Positions 4,327 through 23,206 of a DNA stretch of 64,000 nucleotides are shown here, in pieces. The stretch is from assembly GCA_016869975.1 (NCBI GenBank), contig VGCZ01000004.1, positions 89,041-153,040 on the forward strand, written 5' to 3'. The notes under the pieces were generated by a model. The model was not told the DNA's origin. It saw only the letters and a list, made by a program, of their open reading frames with translations, and did no database searches. The DNA comes from Alphaproteobacteria bacterium. Lineage in GTDB: Bacteria > Pseudomonadota > Alphaproteobacteria > Reyranellales > Reyranellaceae. Each line of letters opens with the position of its first letter. The first letter of the stretch is position 1. The position numbers and the translations under genes are program-made.

Positions 4327-5289
4327 CTAGAGACCCAATTCAGGGATTACCCATAGGGGCTTCTCGCCGCGCGCCACACGCTGGACGTTGTCGAAGCCGT
4401 TGCGCAGGCGCGCCTCGTTGCTTTCCCAGGTCGGGCCGGCGAGATGCGCGGTGAGCACGACGTTGTCGAGCGTGAACAGCGGGTTGTTGGCCGGCGGCGG
4501 CTCCTCGTCGAAGACGTCGAGGCCGGCGCCGCCGATCTTGCCCGAGGCCAGCGCCGCATGCATCGCCTTCTCGTCGATCACCGGCCCGCGCGAGGTGTTG
4601 ATGATCAGCGCCGTGGGCTTCATGCGCGCGATCTCGGCGGCACCCAGCAGGTGATGCGTCGTGTCGTTCAGGGGAACGTGCAGCGAGATGATGTCGGACT
4701 TGCTGAGGATTTCCGGCAGCAGGCGGAAGCGCACGTTGAGCGCGTCCTCCTCGGCCTCGGTGAGCCGGGCGATGTCGTAGTAGGTCACGATCACGCCGAA
4801 GGCCTGCGCCAGCCGCGCAGTCTTCTTGCCGATCGTGCCCAGCCCGATGATGCCCAGCGTCTTGCCGCGCAGCTCGTTGACACGCGGCACCGAGTTGCCG
4901 CGCCAGCGGCCGCCGGTGACGTTGGCATGCTGCTGGATCAGCTTGCGCGAGACCGCCAGCATCAAGAGCAGCGCGTGCTCCGACACCGCCACGGAGTTGG
5001 CGCCACCGTTGTTGGAGATCGGCACCTTGGCCTTGCGCGCAGCCGCGAGGTCGGCGCGGTCATAGCCGGCGCTGAGCAGCTGGATCAGCTTGAGCTTCGG
5101 CGCGCCGGCGTACAGCTGCTCCTTCACCAGCATGTCGACGAAGCCGACCAGATAATCGGCGCTCTTCAGCGCCTCCGTGCATTGCGGCGAGCCGGGCGCC
5201 ACCTTGACGATCTCGTAGCCCGAGGGCGCGATGTCGTCGACCATCGACAACGTGTCGCCCGGCGCGGCCACCACGATGCGCGGTGCCAT
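4327..5289 (-). CDS. NAD-dependent D-2-hydroxyacid dehydrogenase
   Basis: A 320-residue member of the D-isomer-specific 2-hydroxyacid dehydrogenase family. The nucleotide-binding motif GIIGLGTIGKKTARL sits near residues 145-160. The catalytic Arg is in NTSRGPVIDE, the Glu in DVFDEEPP and the His in LTAHLAGPT. It interconverts a 2-keto acid and a D-2-hydroxy acid with NAD(H) in the cytoplasm. The start at 5289 has GGGGGAG upstream. It follows the amidohydrolase gene by 28 bases on the same strand and may be co-transcribed with it, possibly acting on a product of the same pathway. Confidence 0.9.
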   Translation of the reverse strand: MAPRIVVAAPGDTLSMVDDIAPSGYEIVKVAPGSPQCTEALKSADYLVGFVDMLVKEQLYAGAPKLKLIQLLSAGYDRADLAAARKAKVPISNNGGANSVAVSEHALLLMLAVSRKLIQQHANVTGGRWRGNSVPRVNELRGKTLGIIGLGTIGKKTARLAQAFGVIVTYYDIARLTEAEEDALNVRFRLLPEILSKSDIISLHVPLNDTTHHLLGAAEIARMKPTALIINTSRGPVIDEKAMHAALASGKIGGAGLDVFDEEPPPANNPLFTLDNVVLTAHLAGPTWESNEARLRNGFDNVQRVARGEKPLWVIPELGL

Positions 5290-5317
5290 CGTTTGTCTCC
5301 CCCTTGGTCCGACGGCC

Positions 5318-6457
5318 TCAGTTGGCCAGGCGATACAGCCTCATCGCGTTGTCGCGCGTGATCTTGCGCCGCTGCTCGGCGGTGACGCCGGCGAGCTCCT
5401 TGTTGAGGAACTCCTGGCTGTCCGGCCAGATGCCGTCGGGATGCGGGAAGTCGGAGCCCCACATCACGTTGTCCTCGCCCAGATGGTGCAGCAGCTCGAT
5501 GCCGACCGGGTCGGTCTGGTAGGTGGCGTAGAACTGGCGGTGCCAGTACTCGCTGGGCTTCATCTTGAGGTCGAGGTCCTTGAACTGGTCCTCCCATTCC
5601 AGATCCATGTGCTGCAGCACGTAGGGGATCCATCCCAGGCCAGCTTCGCCGATCACGATCTTCAGGTTTGGATAGCGCGCCGGCGCGCCGGAGAAGATCA
5701 GGCCCATCAGCATCGTCGACATGTGCATCTGGAAGCCGGTGATGTGCACGGCGAAGATGCGGCGCTGGACATGCGGCGGGAACTTGGTGACGTCGGGCGA
5801 GCGGCCGCCGATGGTGTGGAAGTGCAGCGGAATGCCGGTCTCGTGGCCGAACTTCCACAGCGGCTCCCAATGCTCGTCCCACAGCGGCACCATGTCGGGC
5901 CGGTTGGCGATGTCGAGGCCCAGCACGCCGCGCTTGGCGCAGCGCATCGCCTCGCCGACCGCCTCCTGCATGTTGTAGTTGGGAATGTTGGCCAGGCCGA
6001 TCAGCCGCTCGGGCGCGGCCTTGCAGAAATCGTGGAGCCAGTCGTTGTAGATGCGCAGCATCTCCAGCGCGGCCTCAGGATCGTTGAGCCGACCGCTCGA
6101 GCCCAGCACGCCGTAGATCACCTCGGCCTGCACGCCGTCACGGTCCTGGTCCTTCAGGCGCAGCGCGGGTTCGGTCAGCCGGCGCACGCCCTTCTTGCCG
6201 TCGTCGTAGAGCCCGGTCGAGGCCATGCGGTCGGAGCGATGGATTACGCCGGGGACGTATTCGCGGCCGGCCGAGCCCATACCGTTGACCAGGCCGAAAT
6301 TCGCGCCGTTCTTGCTCGTCCAGTACGGCCCCTTCGGTCCGTCGACCACATGGGGCATGCGGTCCTTGAACGCCGCCGAGGCGTTGGCCGTGAACAGATC
6401 GGGCGGCAGCCAGATCAGGTCGACATGACCGTCGGCCGAGATGACGTCGTATTTCAT
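5318..6457 (-). CDS. Amidohydrolase family protein (ACMSD/2,3-dihydroxybenzoate decarboxylase-like)
   Basis: A 379-residue metal-dependent TIM-barrel enzyme of the amidohydrolase_2 group. Metal-ligand motifs are SADGHVD at the N-terminus, PLHFHTIGG and HITGFQ in the barrel, and GSDFPHPDG with the C-terminal Asp. The family includes decarboxylases of aromatic acids and hydrolases. A second member of the same subfamily, with the same YPHPD/FPHPDG tail, lies at 45919-47067. The start at 6457 is preceded by GAGGAACGAG. It is probably an operon with the hydroxyacid dehydrogenase 28 bases downstream. Confidence 0.85.
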   Translation of the reverse strand: MKYDVISADGHVDLIWLPPDLFTANASAAFKDRMPHVVDGPKGPYWTSKNGANFGLVNGMGSAGREYVPGVIHRSDRMASTGLYDDGKKGVRRLTEPALRLKDQDRDGVQAEVIYGVLGSSGRLNDPEAALEMLRIYNDWLHDFCKAAPERLIGLANIPNYNMQEAVGEAMRCAKRGVLGLDIANRPDMVPLWDEHWEPLWKFGHETGIPLHFHTIGGRSPDVTKFPPHVQRRIFAVHITGFQMHMSTMLMGLIFSGAPARYPNLKIVIGEAGLGWIPYVLQHMDLEWEDQFKDLDLKMKPSEYWHRQFYATYQTDPVGIELLHHLGEDNVMWGSDFPHPDGIWPDSQEFLNKELAGVTAEQRRKITRDNAMRLYRLAN

Positions 6458-6542
6458 GGCTCGTTCCTCCGCGCTGGCCGTAAGGTCGCGCGGACAGCGC
6501 CGGAAAGCTAGCGCTTCGGCGCGCGGGAGCTATGCCTCCGCG

Positions 6543-7319
6543 TCACGGCCGGACCCCCGGCGCCTCCATCGCCATGCCGCGGGCGCGGCTCATCAGGTAG
6601 AGCTCCAGCGCCGCATACTCCGCCGAGTCGTAGGCGTAGGGCTCGGCGCGCATGCCCACCAGGCAGTTGCGCAAACGACGCTTGAGAGAGCCCACCGCCT
6701 GCCACTCCAGCCGGTAGATCGGATAGCCGGTCGGGTGGCCCTGAGGGATGGTGGCGCCGGCCAGCCGGCCGCCGGCGTTGTCGTCGTGGCACTGCGCGCA
6801 GGACAGGTTGAGCTGCCCCTGCCGCTGGCGCCACAGCGCCTCGCCGCTCTCGACGAAAGGCCGCAGGCGCGGATCATCAGGTGGCGCGATCGGCTGGCCG
6901 CGTGATTGGCGGGCGATAAAGGCGCTGAGCGCCACCAGCTCGCGGCTCTCCGGCGCCAGCGGCTCAGCCTTCTGCTGCTCGACCCGGCAGCGATTGACGC
7001 GCTGGCCGAGATCAATCGGCCGATTGGTCGCTGCGTCGAAGGCCGGGTAGCGGGCAGCGACGCCGGCCATGGCGGTCTCGCCGGCGTGACAGTCGGCGCA
7101 GGCCTTGCCGGCCGCGCCCTCGCGCCTGGCCCACAGCGCCCGGCCCTCGCCGACCCACAACATGCCGGGGTTGGCGCTGTCGTCGTCCTGCATGGCGCGC
7201 AGGGAAGCACCCATCTCCTGGTAGCCGGAGCGGCGCGGATCGGCGGTCTGCGCCATGGCCCACGTCACCAGGAAGACGGCCAGCGCGCCCGCCGAGACGA
7301 TCGCCGGCAGCGACCTCAT
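6543..7319 (-). CDS. soxA: SoxA, diheme c-type cytochrome of thiosulfate oxidation
   Basis: A 258-residue periplasmic protein with a Sec signal peptide ending at AMA-Q (about residue 23). Two haem sites are visible, CADCH and CAQCH, so this is the diheme type. The C-terminal NCLVGMRAEPY carries the Cys that becomes the unusual cysteine-persulfide haem ligand. With SoxX it forms the enzyme that joins thiosulfate to the SoxY carrier Cys. It is the last gene of the eight-gene operon, and its ATG overlaps the SoxZ stop by four bases (ATGA). All expected SoxA residues appear present, in contrast to SoxY. Confidence 0.92.
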   Translation of the reverse strand: MRSLPAIVSAGALAVFLVTWAMAQTADPRRSGYQEMGASLRAMQDDDSANPGMLWVGEGRALWARREGAAGKACADCHAGETAMAGVAARYPAFDAATNRPIDLGQRVNRCRVEQQKAEPLAPESRELVALSAFIARQSRGQPIAPPDDPRLRPFVESGEALWRQRQGQLNLSCAQCHDDNAGGRLAGATIPQGHPTGYPIYRLEWQAVGSLKRRLRNCLVGMRAEPYAYDSAEYAALELYLMSRARGMAMEAPGVRP

Positions 7320-7636
7320 TCGACGGAGATCGACGCGCTCTCCTCGACGGAGAAGCCGTTGTCGCCGGTCCAGCGGAACACCAGCGTGCCGCTCTGCGTC
7401 GCGACCGTGGTGAAGGCGATGAACGGGTTGGCGGCGATCGCTGGCGTGAGCGTCAGGCCGAAGACCTCGGCGCCGTCGTACACGCAGGTGAAGCGGGTGA
7501 TGATGTCACGCGGGATCAGCCGACCATTGGGCCCGGCGCGGAAGCCGGTTTCCATCGGATGCGCGATCAAGGTCTTGATCTCGATCACCTCGCCGCGTTT
7601 GGCGGTCTTCGGCACGTTGACGAGGACGCTCGCCAT
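7316..7636 (-). CDS. soxZ: SoxZ, sulfur carrier complex subunit
   Basis: A 106-residue protein of normal SoxZ length with the immunoglobulin-like strand pattern, including IAHPMETGFR near the N-terminus and FTTVATQSGTLVFRWTGDNG near the end. SoxZ holds SoxY in the periplasm as the carrier on which sulfane and sulfonate groups are oxidised. It has no signal peptide, as is normal, because it is exported with SoxY. I prefer the ATG at 7636, which shares one base with the SoxY stop (TGATG) and has GGAG six bases upstream. A GTG at 7639 would add one residue. Confidence 0.92.
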   Translation of the reverse strand: MASVLVNVPKTAKRGEVIEIKTLIAHPMETGFRAGPNGRLIPRDIITRFTCVYDGAEVFGLTLTPAIAANPFIAFTTVATQSGTLVFRWTGDNGFSVEESASISVE

Positions 7637-8088
7637 CACACGATCTCCTCGACGCAGGCCGCGAGCGTCACCACCACCTCGGCGGCGCCGCTCCAGAAGC
7701 CGCCGTCGCTCAGCTCGGCGATGGCGACGATGCGCTGCGAGGCGTTGAGCTTGATGCGTGTCGACAAGAGCGCGCGCCCCGAGCGCGGGCCCAGGTTCGC
7801 GTGCAGCACGTGCGGCTGCGGGTTGTTCTCGTTGAAGATATGGATCGCGCGGACGTGGTCGGCGTCGGTCATCGGGCTGTCGACCGTGACCGACAGCGGC
7901 ACGGTGTGGCCATTCTCGACCAGCGGCGGGATGTCCAGCGTCACCTTGCCGGTGTTGATCTTCGCGCCCCTGGTCACGGCCTCGATCGCCTTGCGCATCT
8001 GCTCCGGCGTCGCGCGCGCGGACGACAGCGGCATTACGGCGGCGATCGCCGAGCCGATCACGAAGGCGCGTCGTGTGGATGGGCTCAT
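7636..8088 (-). CDS. soxY: SoxY, sulfur carrier subunit with atypical C-terminus
   Basis: A 150-residue protein with a Tat-type signal (STRRAFVIGSA, cleavage near SARA). Its body matches SoxY: VTLDIPPLVENGHTVPL, VDSPMTDADHV, IHIFNENNPQP and LGPRSGRA. The odd part is the end. Canonical SoxY finishes in a flexible GGCGG arm whose Cys carries the sulfur. Here the last residues are VTLAACVEEIV, so a Cys is kept but both glycine pairs are lost and five further residues follow it. I checked the DNA and the frame is clean to TGA at 7636. Whether this Cys can reach the SoxAX and FccAB active sites is open. Confidence 0.88.
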   Translation of the reverse strand: MSPSTRRAFVIGSAIAAVMPLSSARATPEQMRKAIEAVTRGAKINTGKVTLDIPPLVENGHTVPLSVTVDSPMTDADHVRAIHIFNENNPQPHVLHANLGPRSGRALLSTRIKLNASQRIVAIAELSDGGFWSGAAEVVVTLAACVEEIV

Positions 8089-8112
8089 GTTGGTGGGCTC
8101 ATGGCGCCGATC

Positions 8113-8535
8113 CTACTCCTTGAGCGTCATCAGGAAAGCGACGACATCCTCGACCTGCGCCGCAGACAGTATAGGCTTGCCGGCGAAGGCGCGCGCGACG
8201 CGTTCCAGCCCCTCGGTCCGATAATAGGGCGGCATGATCGTGGCCGGATTGAGCCGGCCCGCATCGACGACGCGCAGGCGCAACTGCCCCTCCGACCAGC
8301 GCGCGCCGGCGCCCGACAGGCTGGGCGCGAGATTGCCCTGGAAGCGCTCCTCCGGGAACGGCCCGGTGTGACAGAGCAGGCAGAGCCCGACCTGCCGATT
8401 GGCGACGACGGCGCGACCCCGCGCCGCGTCGCCCGGCTCGCCGGTGAGCGACTGCGGGATCGCGTCGCCCACCACGGTCTGCGCCGAAACCGGCCCCGAC
8501 AGCAGCAGGGCGACGAGCAGCAGCACGACGCGCAT
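8113..8535 (-). CDS. soxX: SoxX, monoheme c-type cytochrome
   Basis: A 140-residue periplasmic cytochrome with a Sec signal peptide (MRVVLLLVALLLSGPVSA). It has one haem site, CLLCH near residue 52, and the axial Met in IMPPYY. The segment RGRAVVANRQVGLCLLCH is typical of SoxX. It pairs with SoxA as SoxAX. It starts three bases after the flavoprotein stop, and SoxY begins 24 bases downstream. Confidence 0.92.
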   Translation of the reverse strand: MRVVLLLVALLLSGPVSAQTVVGDAIPQSLTGEPGDAARGRAVVANRQVGLCLLCHTGPFPEERFQGNLAPSLSGAGARWSEGQLRLRVVDAGRLNPATIMPPYYRTEGLERVARAFAGKPILSAAQVEDVVAFLMTLKE

Positions 8536-19300: not shown

Positions 19301-20895
19301 ACGCGGATTTCGTCGTTGTCGGTGCGGGCTCGGCGGGTTGTGTCGTCGCGTCCCGCCTGAGCGAGACCGGCGCGACGGTGACGCTTCTCGAGGCCGGGCC
19401 GACCGACTGGTACCCGTTCATCCATATTCCCGCCGGCGTGCGCACGCTGCTGCGCAACAAGCGCATGAACTGGAACTACGAGAGCGAGCCGGAGGCGGTC
19501 AGCGGCAACCGGCCGATCCATTGGCCGCGCGGCAAGGTGCTCGGCGGCTCGAGCTCGATCAACGGCATGCTCTACGTTCGCGGCAACGCTACGGACTACG
19601 ACGGCTGGGCGCAGATGGGCTGCCGCGGCTGGTCGTTCGACGACGTGCTGCCGCTGTTCAAGAAGTCCGAGGACTACAAGCCGGGCGACTCCAGCGTGCG
19701 CGGCAAGGGCGGACCGCTGAAGGTCGAGGACTACCGCACCATCCTGCCCCTCACCCATCTGTTCGTGAAGGCGGCGCAGGAGGCCGGCTTCACCTTCAAT
19801 GCCGACCTCAACGGCCACAGCCAGGAAGGCGTCGGCTACTCGCAGATGACACGGCGCGGCCGCTTCCGCGGCTCGACCGCGCGCACCTTCCTTGCCGAGG
19901 CGCGCGGGCGCGCCAATCTCCGCGTCGAGACCAACGCCATCGCCACGCGCCTGCTGTTCGAGGGCACGAAATGCGTCGGCGTCGCCTTCCGCCAGAACGG
20001 CGTCGATCGCGAGATCCGCGCCGCGCGAGAGGTGATCGTCAGCGGCGGCGCAGTGAACTCGCCGCACTTGCTGCAGATTTCCGGCATCGGCCCGGCCGAG
20101 CACCTCAAGAGCATCGGCGCGCCTGTCGTGCTCGATTCGCCGGGCGTCGGCGCCAATCTGATCGACCACTACGTGATCCGCATCTCGCATCGCGTGAAGG
20201 ATCTCGTGTCGCTCAACAACCTCGCGCGCGGACCGCGGGTCGTGGCCGAGGCCATCCGCTACGTCGTCACCGGCAAGGGCGCGCTGACCATGGGAGTCAC
20301 CAGCGCGCAGGTCTTCTGCCGCAGCCGCGAGGGGCTGGCGAGCCCCGACCTGCAATTGCTGTTCACGCCCGCCAGCTCCGACCCCATGCGCATCGGCGAG
20401 CTGGAGCGCGAGGCCGGCATGACGGTGGCGATCTGCGTCGTGCGGCCCGACAGCCGCGGCACGATCATGGCCACCACGACCGATCCCACGGCCAAGCCAG
20501 CGATCCGGCCCAACTACATCTCTGCCGCCGAGGATCTGCGGGTGATGACCGCGGGCTTCCGCCATACACGCCGCATCTTCGCGGCACCGTCGATGGCGCA
20601 ACACAGCGCTGGCGAGATCGCCCCCGGCCCGTCGGTCGAGAGCGACCTCGACGTCGCCGACTACGCCAGGCGCGCCGGCAACACGCTCTACCACCCGGTC
20701 GGCACCTGCCGCATGGGCGAGGATCCGCGCGCGGTGGTCGATTCACGGCTGCGCGTGCGCGGCATCGGCGGGCTGCGGGTGATCGACGCCTCGATCATGC
20801 CGACCTTGACCACCGGCAACACCAACGCGCCCACCATCATGATCGGCGAGAAGGGCGCTATGATGATCCGCGAGGATTCTGGCTTGGCGGCATGA
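19297..20895 (+). CDS. GMC family oxidoreductase (choline dehydrogenase-like)
   Basis: A 532-residue flavoprotein starting at a GTG that overlaps the propeller stop. It shows FVVVGAGSAGCVVASRLSE, the GMC signature GKVLGGSSSINGMLYVRG, NGHSQEGVGYSQ, and the C-terminal LYHPVGTCRMGEDP with INDIDASIMPT-like SIMPTLTTGNTNAPT. It resembles choline or other alcohol dehydrogenases. Its 3' end overlaps the convergent MFS gene by 38 bases, so the two coding ends share DNA. Translational coupling to the propeller gene points to one function for the trio. Confidence 0.88.
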   Translation: MNADFVVVGAGSAGCVVASRLSETGATVTLLEAGPTDWYPFIHIPAGVRTLLRNKRMNWNYESEPEAVSGNRPIHWPRGKVLGGSSSINGMLYVRGNATDYDGWAQMGCRGWSFDDVLPLFKKSEDYKPGDSSVRGKGGPLKVEDYRTILPLTHLFVKAAQEAGFTFNADLNGHSQEGVGYSQMTRRGRFRGSTARTFLAEARGRANLRVETNAIATRLLFEGTKCVGVAFRQNGVDREIRAAREVIVSGGAVNSPHLLQISGIGPAEHLKSIGAPVVLDSPGVGANLIDHYVIRISHRVKDLVSLNNLARGPRVVAEAIRYVVTGKGALTMGVTSAQVFCRSREGLASPDLQLLFTPASSDPMRIGELEREAGMTVAICVVRPDSRGTIMATTTDPTAKPAIRPNYISAAEDLRVMTAGFRHTRRIFAAPSMAQHSAGEIAPGPSVESDLDVADYARRAGNTLYHPVGTCRMGEDPRAVVDSRLRVRGIGGLRVIDASIMPTLTTGNTNAPTIMIGEKGAMMIREDSGLAA

Positions 20896-22039
20896 AGAAC
20901 GCCAGCCAGGCGCCCACGACATTGCCGCAGCCGGCGACAATCACGGCGACGCGGTAGCCGCCGGTGAGATCGAAGAGAAAGCCGGCCAGCACCGGCAAGG
21001 TGACGGCGGCGACGCACCAGCCGATATAGAGCAGGCTGGCGATGCGGCCGTACTCGGTCTTCGGCCAGTACATCGCGATGGCGCCGGCGGTCGAGCCGGA
21101 GATCAGGCCGTAGCCGATGCCGATCATGCCCAAGGTCACGGTCGAGACCAGCGCCTGCGGGAACAGCGACAAGACGACGGCGCCGGTCAACGACAGCAGG
21201 TGCGCCACCGCCATGACGCGCGGGATGGCGAAGCGATCGACCAGCCAACCGCCGCTCAGCCGCGCGGCGGCGATGGCGGCGGGAATCGCGGTGGTGGCGG
21301 CGAGCGCGATCTCGGGCGACGCGCCGTAGGCGGTGATGATGCCCGCGGCCTGACTCAGCACGGTCAACCCCGCGGCCGCCGCAAGGAAGAACACCAGGGA
21401 TAGGCGCCAGAAGATTGCCGCCCGTGGCGGCGATTGCGGGGCAGTCCGCGTCGCTTCCGGCTCGGCCAGACGCGCGCGCGCATGGACGGTGAGCAGCGTC
21501 GCCAGTACGCCGACGATCGCCACCACAACGCCCAGCCCGCCCATCACCACGCGCACGTCCCAATGGGCCACGGCCCAGCCGAACAGCGGCGCCGCGATGA
21601 CGGCGCCGGCGGGATAGAGGCTGACGATGTAGCCGTTCACCAGGCCTTGCCGTCCGCTCAGCATCAGGTTCATGCCCTGCTGCAGCATGATGTAGGCGGC
21701 GCCGCCGCCGATGCCGAACAGCACGCCGTAGCCGATGGTCAGCAGCGCCAGCCCATCGGCGATCGCCGCGAGCCCCAGGCCCGCGGTGCTGAGCGCGCAG
21801 CACGCCGCGACCAGCACGGGCACCGACGCCAGTCGGTAGAGGCGTGGCGCGATGTTCATGCCGACCGTGAAGCTGATCGTCGCGGCGGCGAAGACGATCG
21901 CCAGATCCGACCGGCTGACGCCCAACGATCGCTCCAGCGGCTTGAGGAACACGCTGAAGGCGTAGAGCGAGCCCATCGGCAGGTTCACCAGCGTCACTGC
22001 CAGCAACATCGCCCAGGGGCGCGGAGGATCAGCGCTCAC
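20858..22039 (-). CDS. MFS transporter (oxalate/formate antiporter-like)
   Basis: A 393-residue inner-membrane protein with about twelve hydrophobic helices. LVNLPMGSLYAFSVFLKPLE is typical of the OFA/MCT-like branch. I use the GTG at 22039; the open frame to 22111 runs through a palindrome. It lies 40 bases downstream of the borosin-type methyltransferase on the same strand, with only a small hairpin between, so it may be read through and could move the peptide product or a precursor. That is an inference from position, because OFA members normally carry small organic anions. Confidence 0.82.
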   Translation of the reverse strand: MSADPPRPWAMLLAVTLVNLPMGSLYAFSVFLKPLERSLGVSRSDLAIVFAAATISFTVGMNIAPRLYRLASVPVLVAACCALSTAGLGLAAIADGLALLTIGYGVLFGIGGGAAYIMLQQGMNLMLSGRQGLVNGYIVSLYPAGAVIAAPLFGWAVAHWDVRVVMGGLGVVVAIVGVLATLLTVHARARLAEPEATRTAPQSPPRAAIFWRLSLVFFLAAAAGLTVLSQAAGIITAYGASPEIALAATTAIPAAIAAARLSGGWLVDRFAIPRVMAVAHLLSLTGAVVLSLFPQALVSTVTLGMIGIGYGLISGSTAGAIAMYWPKTEYGRIASLLYIGWCVAAVTLPVLAGFLFDLTGGYRVAVIVAGCGNVVGAWLAFFMPPSQNPRGSS

Positions 22040-22044
22040 GTTTC

Positions 22045-22071
22045 GTCGTCCTGAGCGCAGCGAAGGACGAC
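22045..22071. repeat. Short palindrome, family D
   Basis: GTCGTCCT and AGGACGAC form a perfect 8-base stem around GAGCGCAGCGA. It fills the 40-base gap between the methyltransferase stop and the MFS start and could attenuate read-through between them. Confidence 0.6.
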
Positions 22072-22079
22072 AGGGTGGT

Positions 22080-22928
22080 TCATTCCTCGCCCGACTCCTT
22101 GTACGCCGCATTGAGCGCGACCATGCGATTGTAGGCGTCCATATCAGGGTCGGCGACGCGCGAGGGCGGCACGTAGAGCGTGTAGGCGATCGACAGCGGT
22201 TCGCTCATCAGGTCGGCTGCGACGATCTGGCGGATGATCGACTCGCAGCCCGGCAGCACCGCGGCGTCGTAGAGGTACATCGCGTGCGCCGGCCCGTAGA
22301 TGCGCTCGAGCTTCTCGACGAGCAGCGACATGGCCGGCAGGGCGTAGCTACCCTGCTTGTGGGTGGCGAAGCCGAAAATGCCGATCTGCCACAGCACGAC
22401 CGCCGAGCTGGTGTCGACGCTGCGCCGGTTGAGCACGAAATCGGTGGCCTCGAAGGACTGGCAGCCATGGATGCCGGGATCGACGCCGAGATCGGCGAAC
22501 AGACAGTCCTCGGCCGAGATGCCCGGCAGCATGCGCGCCTCGAAGCCTTCGGCGCGCGCGCGGCGGATCGCTTCATGCGCCGGCGAGACGAAGACGCCGG
22601 GATGACCGTAGAACGCCGCGCAGGTCAGGTCGCCGGCGCGCAGGCAGGCGAGGATGCGATCGACCATGCCGCCATAGGCATCCGTGCGATCCTTGTCGGC
22701 GACATAGGTGTCGGCCAGCGACCGCGCGCCCTCGGGATTGAGCGAGCGGATCGCGCCCTCGGCGATCGGATCGCCGACGAGATAGAGCACCGTGTCGGCG
22801 CGCTTGATCCACGCCACCGCCTCGGTGGTCATCTGGCCCACGGTGCGGATGCCGGTGCCGACGATCACCAGCGAGCCCCGGCGCGCCGGCGGGTCGTTGG
22901 CGCCGAAGGGATCGTCGCGGTCGGCCAT
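22080..22928 (-). CDS. Borosin-type peptide alpha-N-methyltransferase (tetrapyrrole methylase fold)
   Basis: A 282-residue SAM-dependent methyltransferase. GSLVIVGTGIRTVGQMT is the SAM-fold N-terminus, AFYGHPGVFVSPAHEAI the central tetrapyrrole-methylase motif, and LPGISAEDCLFADLGVDPG, CQSFEATDF and LWQIGIFG follow. This order and wording match the split borosin methyltransferase SonM of Shewanella, as remembered, rather than cobalamin or sirohaem enzymes. Tyr75, Arg81 and Tyr85 have the spacing of catalytic residues in OphMA. Its ATG shares one base with the stop of the small upstream gene (TGATG), so the two are coupled. It would methylate backbone amides of that peptide. Confidence 0.85.
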   Translation of the reverse strand: MADRDDPFGANDPPARRGSLVIVGTGIRTVGQMTTEAVAWIKRADTVLYLVGDPIAEGAIRSLNPEGARSLADTYVADKDRTDAYGGMVDRILACLRAGDLTCAAFYGHPGVFVSPAHEAIRRARAEGFEARMLPGISAEDCLFADLGVDPGIHGCQSFEATDFVLNRRSVDTSSAVVLWQIGIFGFATHKQGSYALPAMSLLVEKLERIYGPAHAMYLYDAAVLPGCESIIRQIVAADLMSEPLSIAYTLYVPPSRVADPDMDAYNRMVALNAAYKESGEE

Positions 22929-23155
22929 CAGCTTTTCCCCGGCAACGCGACGGGCGAGGCCGGCGCCGCCGGCAGCGCCGTGTGGGTGAGTCGCGTGTAG
23001 ATCGTGCGCGCGTTGGCGCTTTTCACGATGTCGCGCTCTGCCGCGTCGAGTCCGGCCGCGGCCATCGCCGCTTCGGGATCGCGCAGAAACGCCTCGTGCT
23101 TCATTGGGTCTGTCGCCATCGCGACCCAGAACGCCATCAACCGATCTTCCGCCAC
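22928..23155 (-). CDS. Putative borosin precursor peptide with borosin-binding-domain-like leader
   Basis: A 75-residue protein starting at a GTG with GGAGG five bases upstream. Residues 1-47 are helical in pattern (LMAFWVAMATDPMKHEAFL, then DPEAAMAAAGLDAAERDIV), resembling the helical leader of the Shewanella precursor SonA. Residues 51-75 are different: TIYTRLTHTALPAAP followed by an Ala/Pro/Val/Leu stretch ending GKS. That tail is the likely modified core. The gene is directly followed by the methyltransferase with a one-base overlap. The leader type is often labelled LigA-like in databases. There is no signal peptide. Confidence 0.75.
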   Translation of the reverse strand: MAEDRLMAFWVAMATDPMKHEAFLRDPEAAMAAAGLDAAERDIVKSANARTIYTRLTHTALPAAPASPVALPGKS

Positions 23156-23206
23156 GTCGTCCTCCGTACCGGCACGCTAGCATAGGAGGGCCGCCGGCGA
23201 GCGCCG

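Follow-up and report, generated by a model that had tools for sequence, protein, structure and literature searches.

Two overlapping genes in Reyranellaceae DNA raise the question of whether the small protein encoded by the first is the peptide substrate of the methyltransferase encoded by the second. An initial annotation of the whole stretch analysed here (64,000 nucleotides, hereafter the window) had read the two genes as a split borosin pair. We reached the same view and give it a probability of about 0.86: the enzyme is predicted to grip the leader of the small protein and to methylate the backbone of its Pro-rich tail. The evidence for this reading is the PDB and Foldseek matches, the active-site residues, a SonA-like leader, the adjacency of the two genes in relatives and purifying selection. 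The methylation itself is proposed by analogy with characterized systems. Backbone N-methyl groups can shield peptides from proteases and aid membrane crossing. As of 2021, such groups were known among RiPPs in borosins only, according to PMC8429565. PMC11285071 describes a later enzyme for backbone N-methylation, EreM of the proteusins, and reports that type IV borosin clusters occur widely among bacteria and that types V-X are now recognized. Among the papers searched, those mentioning both Reyranella and RiPPs gave nothing on this pair, judged by title or the start of the abstract.

The features of the locus are collected in the table. The coordinates, lengths and gene overlap given by the annotation were correct when the open reading frames and sequence were rechecked. 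Both genes lie on the minus strand, and the stop codon of the precursor gene and the start codon of the methyltransferase gene share TGATG. This junction, CTGATGGCC, is identical in both pair-bearing congeners, G001 (loci L002/L008) and G002 (L003/L009), and so is the gene order. The home genome (4.8 Mb, 96 contigs) contains one copy each of enzyme and precursor. The possibility that the home genome hides another precursor was rejected, as the search gave one real hit and a second of E 0.26 that was partial and contained a stop. The eight neighbours scanned were two GMC oxidoreductases, an NHL-repeat protein, an MFS transporter, a CoA-transferase pair, a Y-family polymerase and a TctC receptor, with no dioxygenase or nitrile-hydratase gene among them. 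A promoter and terminator scan returned 0 sites, none at the palindrome either.

Table. Features of the putative split borosin locus (positions in the window)
Feature	Position	Strand	Details and basis
Precursor gene	22928-23155	-	75 aa, GTG start; ORF and sequence
GGAGG, ribosome-binding-site-like	23161..23165	-	5 nt ahead of precursor GTG; sequence reading
Borosin-family alpha-N-methyltransferase gene	22080..22928	-	282 aa; homology, conserved active-site residues
Predicted leader domain (precursor residues 5-57)	22985..23143	-	Borosin-binding-domain-like; AlphaFold2, Foldseek, VIA, profile
Proposed core tail (precursor residues 58-75), HTALPAAPASPVALPGKS	22931..22984	-	Unstructured in model; core role by SonA analogy
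Active-site stretch of enzyme	22608..22706	-	Y75 22704-22706; R81 22686-22688; Y85 22674-22676; Y107 22608-22610; OphMA/SonM alignment
Palindrome GTCGTCCT...AGGACGAC, REP-like	22045..22071	.	Between methyltransferase and MFS genes; sequence reading
MFS transporter gene, downstream neighbour	20858..22039	-	393 aa from GTG at 22039; ATG at 22111 also possible; Pfam MFS_1 2.8e-25

The methyltransferase is, judged from its sequence, a member of the borosin alpha-N-methyltransferase family. First, its PDB sequence search gave dbOphM at 5.8e-56 and SonM at 2.7e-49, and its 25 PDB matches (dbOphM, OphA, MroMA and SonM) were all borosin enzymes, at 169-194 bits. Second, the AlphaFold2 model (pLDDT 89.6, pTM 0.82) was searched with Foldseek, and the best 50 of 222 matches at E<=0.001 were again all chains of borosin enzymes (OphA, dbOphMA, SonM and MroMA), with 38-41% identity and E values from 7e-31 to 1.5e-27. 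Third, the enzyme has the borosin motifs named in the initial annotation: YGHPGVFVSPAHEAI begins at residue 107, LPGISAEDCLFADLGVDPG at 134 and LWQIG at 179. Finally, the proposed OphMA-like Tyr/Arg/Tyr set also held up. Y75, R81 and Y85 align with OphMA Y66, R72 and Y76, the OphMA numbers being deduced from the alignment and from mutant names. Together with Y107, they align with SonM Y58, R67, Y71 and Y93, with three more residues in SonM between Y58 and R67. In an alignment of 58 enzyme rows that we picked (A3), Y75 is kept in 57 of 58 and R81, Y85 and Y107 in 58 of 58 each. For SonM, PMC8429565 reports that Y58F, R67K and Y71F lowered kcat/KM 14- to 98-fold (Y71F, 98-fold), and that Y93F lowered it 1.6-fold, chiefly through a higher KM for SAM.

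The names attached to the two proteins by Pfam suggest something else, namely a tetrapyrrole (cobalt-precorrin or sirohaem) methylase beside an unrelated LigA-like small protein. The enzyme matches TP_methylase (2.7e-18), and the only Pfam match of the precursor is LigA (PF07746). We regard this alternative as having next to no chance of being right. Four NCBIfam models of cobalt-precorrin/sirohaem-type methylases, whose cut-offs are 163-400 bits, scored about 13 bits, and YabN scored 28.5 of the 525 needed, far from the scores of the borosin enzymes. A methylase of tetrapyrrole biosynthesis is thus contradicted, since no curated cobalt-precorrin, sirohaem or uroporphyrinogen model passes its cut-off. 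A LigA dioxygenase subunit was likewise rejected, given that PF07746 reached 20.3 bits and its gathering score is 25.3; moreover, SonA itself carries the name 'LigA-domain protein' in the PDB.

The leader of the precursor is predicted to be of the five-helix borosin-binding-domain type, in line with the SonA-like helical leader of the initial annotation. AlphaFold2 modelled the precursor (pLDDT 83.7) as a five-helix bundle, with helices at residues 5-15, 17-25, 27-33, 38-46 and 49-57, followed by a loose tail. Foldseek ranks 1-23 were all SonA chains from SonM-SonA crystals, and a VIA structural match to 7ltr_I covered 52 residues at 1.3 A. In addition, a profile built from diverse relatives matched SonA at 2.4e-15 to 7.6e-15. 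The leader is therefore related to other borosin leaders. By structural comparison its helical fold also resembles LigA/Os1348-type leader-like domains, although it scores below the Pfam and NCBIfam cut-offs for them.

Of 6306 enzyme homologues, the analysis covered the best 120. At E<=1e-3, a precursor profile made from the home clade only identified 37 ORFs, which came from 36 other loci; 33 of these ORFs either immediately preceded the enzyme gene or formed a fusion with it. The iterated profile (E<=0.01) detected a leader ORF in 70 of 82 loci (72 ORFs), and in 62 of the 82 it was fused to the enzyme or adjacent to it (within 500 nt, same strand). These locus counts exclude L001-L005, L088 and L089, which are repeats of other loci or of the window or a spurious hit; L020 and L021 are each counted though their precursors are identical, and the home-type loci L008 and L009 are inside the 82-locus counts and outside the 37-ORF count. 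No leader ORF was found in the other 12 of the 82 loci (L006, L014, L029, L032, L040, L043, L054, L062, L065, L070, L085 and L087), in some of which the available sequence stops shortly before the enzyme gene on its upstream side. A scan of species genomes gave 447 relatives, and the best 80 of the 447 come from Thermoplasmatota archaea and a wide range of bacterial phyla. Archaeal loci with enzyme and leader-domain genes (Thermoplasmata, Methanomassiliicoccus) include L039, L041, L044, L048 and L064. The sequence of P0015 (494 aa) reads as a single protein with two consecutive methyltransferase domains of the borosin type.

Within 193 related genomes, the enzyme was found in 6, home included, and a match to the small gene also in 6. 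Five of the latter six also bear the enzyme, with the genes adjacent in all five, so the small gene does lie beside the methyltransferase where both occur. G108 has the enzyme and no small-gene match; the match in G164 stands alone and is weak (E 0.003, in a 939-aa frame). In the congener G003, which lacks the enzyme, the divergent MFS and CoA-transferase genes, between which the pair lies elsewhere, are back to back about 215 bp apart. Read as protein, the gap appears to contain the start of the small gene, an in-frame deletion and a short further match that ends at a stop. The DNA local alignment score of this putative fragment was 47, whereas 200 simple shuffles reached 30 at most. A search of 17 kb of G003 gave no convincing remnant of the enzyme (best tblastn E 0.24). 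Most simply, G003 has lost the pair and kept a fragment of the small gene, in which case the pair would be dispensable.

The adjoining MFS gene was considered as a dedicated exporter of the pair. It occurs in 10 of 12 related genomes, 6 of which have no enzyme (among the 12, only G001, G002, G009 and G028 do), and this role was therefore rejected. In G002 an MFS ATG overlaps the stop of the enzyme gene, so the two genes are likely co-transcribed there.

The unusual part of the pair is the tail. The annotation had placed it at residues 51-75 and called it unusually rich in Pro and Ala. The richness was borne out, with 4 Pro (62, 65, 68 and 72) and 5 Ala in 18 residues; the start was not, as residues 51-57 belong to predicted helix 5 and the loose tail comprises 58-75. 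Nor is the tail unique. In 71 precursors (three of them enzyme-fused leaders), the median Pro fraction just after the leader was 0.11, against 0.24 in the home tail, and at least 4 Pro in the first up to 18 post-leader residues occurred in 14 of the 71, one of the 14 being a congener copy of the home pair. The home tail is thus rich in Pro but not without parallel.

Such a tail could also belong to a decaying pair, whose methylatable core has been lost, leaving the enzyme inactive on the tail. The tail does have residues other than Pro, but Pro interrupts it and it has no bulky aliphatic run. It also changes fastest, with dN of 0.24-0.30 (17-18 codons, three genomes) against 0.04-0.09 in the leader, and the near-complete loss in G003 would fit decay as well. 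We consider decay very improbable, however, given the selection on the enzyme and the conservation of the tail. In the same three genomes, the enzyme had dN of 0.06-0.10 and dN/dS of 0.20-0.33, and the leader dN/dS of 0.12-0.25 (both ratios derived from the computed dN and dS values); dN/dS was below 1 in 9 of 9 comparisons of tail, leader and enzyme. Purifying selection acts on the enzyme, in which the four active-site residues are all retained. The small protein occurs in 24 protein clusters besides that of the window, at 77-86% identity, and L61, P62, L71 and G73 show no variation in these 25 home-type precursors, while P72 and K74 occur in 24 of 25 each. The mean majority share was 0.89 over residues 1-57, fell to 0.72 over 58-68 and was 0.85 over 69-75. 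Hence, the expectation that variation would be confined to residues 51-75 was only partly right: it is concentrated at 58-68, but the tail end 69-75 (..LPGK.) is conserved, and the variable leader positions (n=6: 27, 32, 42, 45, 48 and 54) lie mostly upstream of residue 51.

The nearest relatives place the split borosin pair in a wider context. A maximum-likelihood tree of 69 enzymes united the home clade (6 rows, 100/100) and a sister clade (21 rows, 85/64) in one supported group (99/98). We examined five sister-clade loci, L010-L013 and L049, from Vineibacter terrae, Bradyrhizobium, Phenylobacterium, Burkholderiales and Solirubrobacter. Their enzymes are 61-64% identical to the home enzyme and, as at home, the leader is directly upstream of the enzyme and the cores are Pro-rich. 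In contrast to the one short tail of the home precursor, all five precursors have 255-374 aa with 20-47 PQ[ILVF] units. Given these Pro-Gln repeats, the near relatives favour Pro-rich cores, and the core of the home lineage is very short. Precursor cores that are long repeat arrays also occur in L033, L036, L017, L023 and L025, with VVYAAG/MVYGA repeats in Myxococcota and APWQQMPAGAV in Microvirga. In L047, L053, L055 and L063 the leader domain is followed by Lys-rich tails (KKK, PAKKA), not by hydrophobic cores; we take these tails to resemble those of histone H1.

Two loci of the same family show other arrangements. The metagenome-assembled genome of the congener G001, for which 6% contamination is listed, has a second borosin locus (L117; G001:C16:44000-56000, 4946-8513, minus strand). 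It encodes, in order, a 499-aa repeat protein (GYDPYGGYDPNA, RPPLIRPPLVFPI), a 410-aa arginine-methyltransferase-like protein ending in a leader domain, and the enzyme; the leader is thus on another modifying enzyme and the repeats are on a separate protein. Further fusions of arginine-methyltransferase-like proteins with the leader are P0147 and P0148. In G028 (L119, 7006-9124), a 255-aa protein with FPPQVFPPQ/IPPQFTLPP repeats is followed by a 130-aa leader-domain protein and the enzyme. A search for the leader domain in the 499-aa and 255-aa repeat proteins gave no match with filters off.

This separation of leader domain and Pro-rich repeats in two genomes of the family, together with the fusion of the leader domain to the enzyme N-terminus in L018, L024 and L045, raises an alternative in which the 75-residue protein serves as an adaptor. 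Through its leader it would bring the enzyme to a core carried by a different protein, and the tail of the 75-residue protein would not be a substrate. We think this unlikely in the home genome. No second leader-domain gene was found there, and the Vineibacter repeat precursor used as a query found the home precursor only. The repeat protein of the second G001 locus found nothing, though this search had no positive control. Furthermore, no tandem repeats were found in positions 10000-36000 of the window, and the LPGK at the tail end is conserved.

We return to the split borosin reading, for which the closest characterized system is SonM-SonA (type IV split, Shewanella oneidensis; PMC8429565; PDB 7LTC among others). 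It likewise has a separate enzyme and an adjoining precursor of about 75 residues with a five-helix leader (predicted at home) and a C-terminal tail, and the same Tyr/Arg/Tyr/Tyr active-site set. The home enzyme is about 40% identical to SonM over the model alignment and longer (282 vs 263 residues), with a longer N-terminus. The fungal OphMA/dbOphMA share the methyltransferase fold and residues, and their C-terminal clasp region matches the home leader, but their core is fused to the enzyme whereas the home core is on a separate protein. The pair thus probably belongs to the known class of split borosins, and its unusual feature is the tail. The SonA core has hydrophobic sites (Leu63 and Ile65 methylated) where the home tail has Pro/Ala. 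Over the leader, home residue n corresponds to SonA n-2, so that methylated L63/I65 project onto home P65/S67; this projection is ungapped, and the register may differ.

By analogy with SonM-SonA, enzyme and precursor would form a 2:2 complex in which the enzyme dimer is held by the leader, with the tail inside the SAM active-site channel. Non-Pro backbone amides from about residue 63 on would then be methylated in a SAM-dependent manner, with S67, V69 and L71 as the candidate sites if every second residue is modified in the register of SonA L63/I65. An unlinked protease would later release the tail; no protease gene was found among the eight scanned neighbours. The Shewanella protease is presumably of the pepsin type (PF00026).

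Closely spaced Pro should block helix formation, and the AlphaFold2 model has no helix in the tail. In the SonM model proposed in PMC8429565, the core is a helix before methylation, every methyl transfer disrupts that helix and moves the next site in, and the core helix and leader helix 5 trade off, driving the N-to-C steps. Given the Pro at its four positions, the home tail is likely unable to form the helix that this model invokes, and N-to-C stepping here would therefore need a driver other than the trade-off between core helix and leader helix. We tentatively propose, with more doubt than confidence, a Pro-punctuated, non-helical core whose product alternates N-methyl residues and Pro, so that most of its backbone lacks N-H.

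These findings add to the split borosins a Reyranellaceae lineage with a very short core, as against the long Pro-rich array of the sister lineage. With Pro every 3-4 residues in a natural substrate, the two-gene pair offers a test of the SonM helix model. If a Pro-punctuated, non-helical core is indeed methylated, iteration in this branch would not be driven by core helicity, and one enzyme lineage would have given rise both to a single miniature core and to giant Pro-Gln repeat polypeptides.
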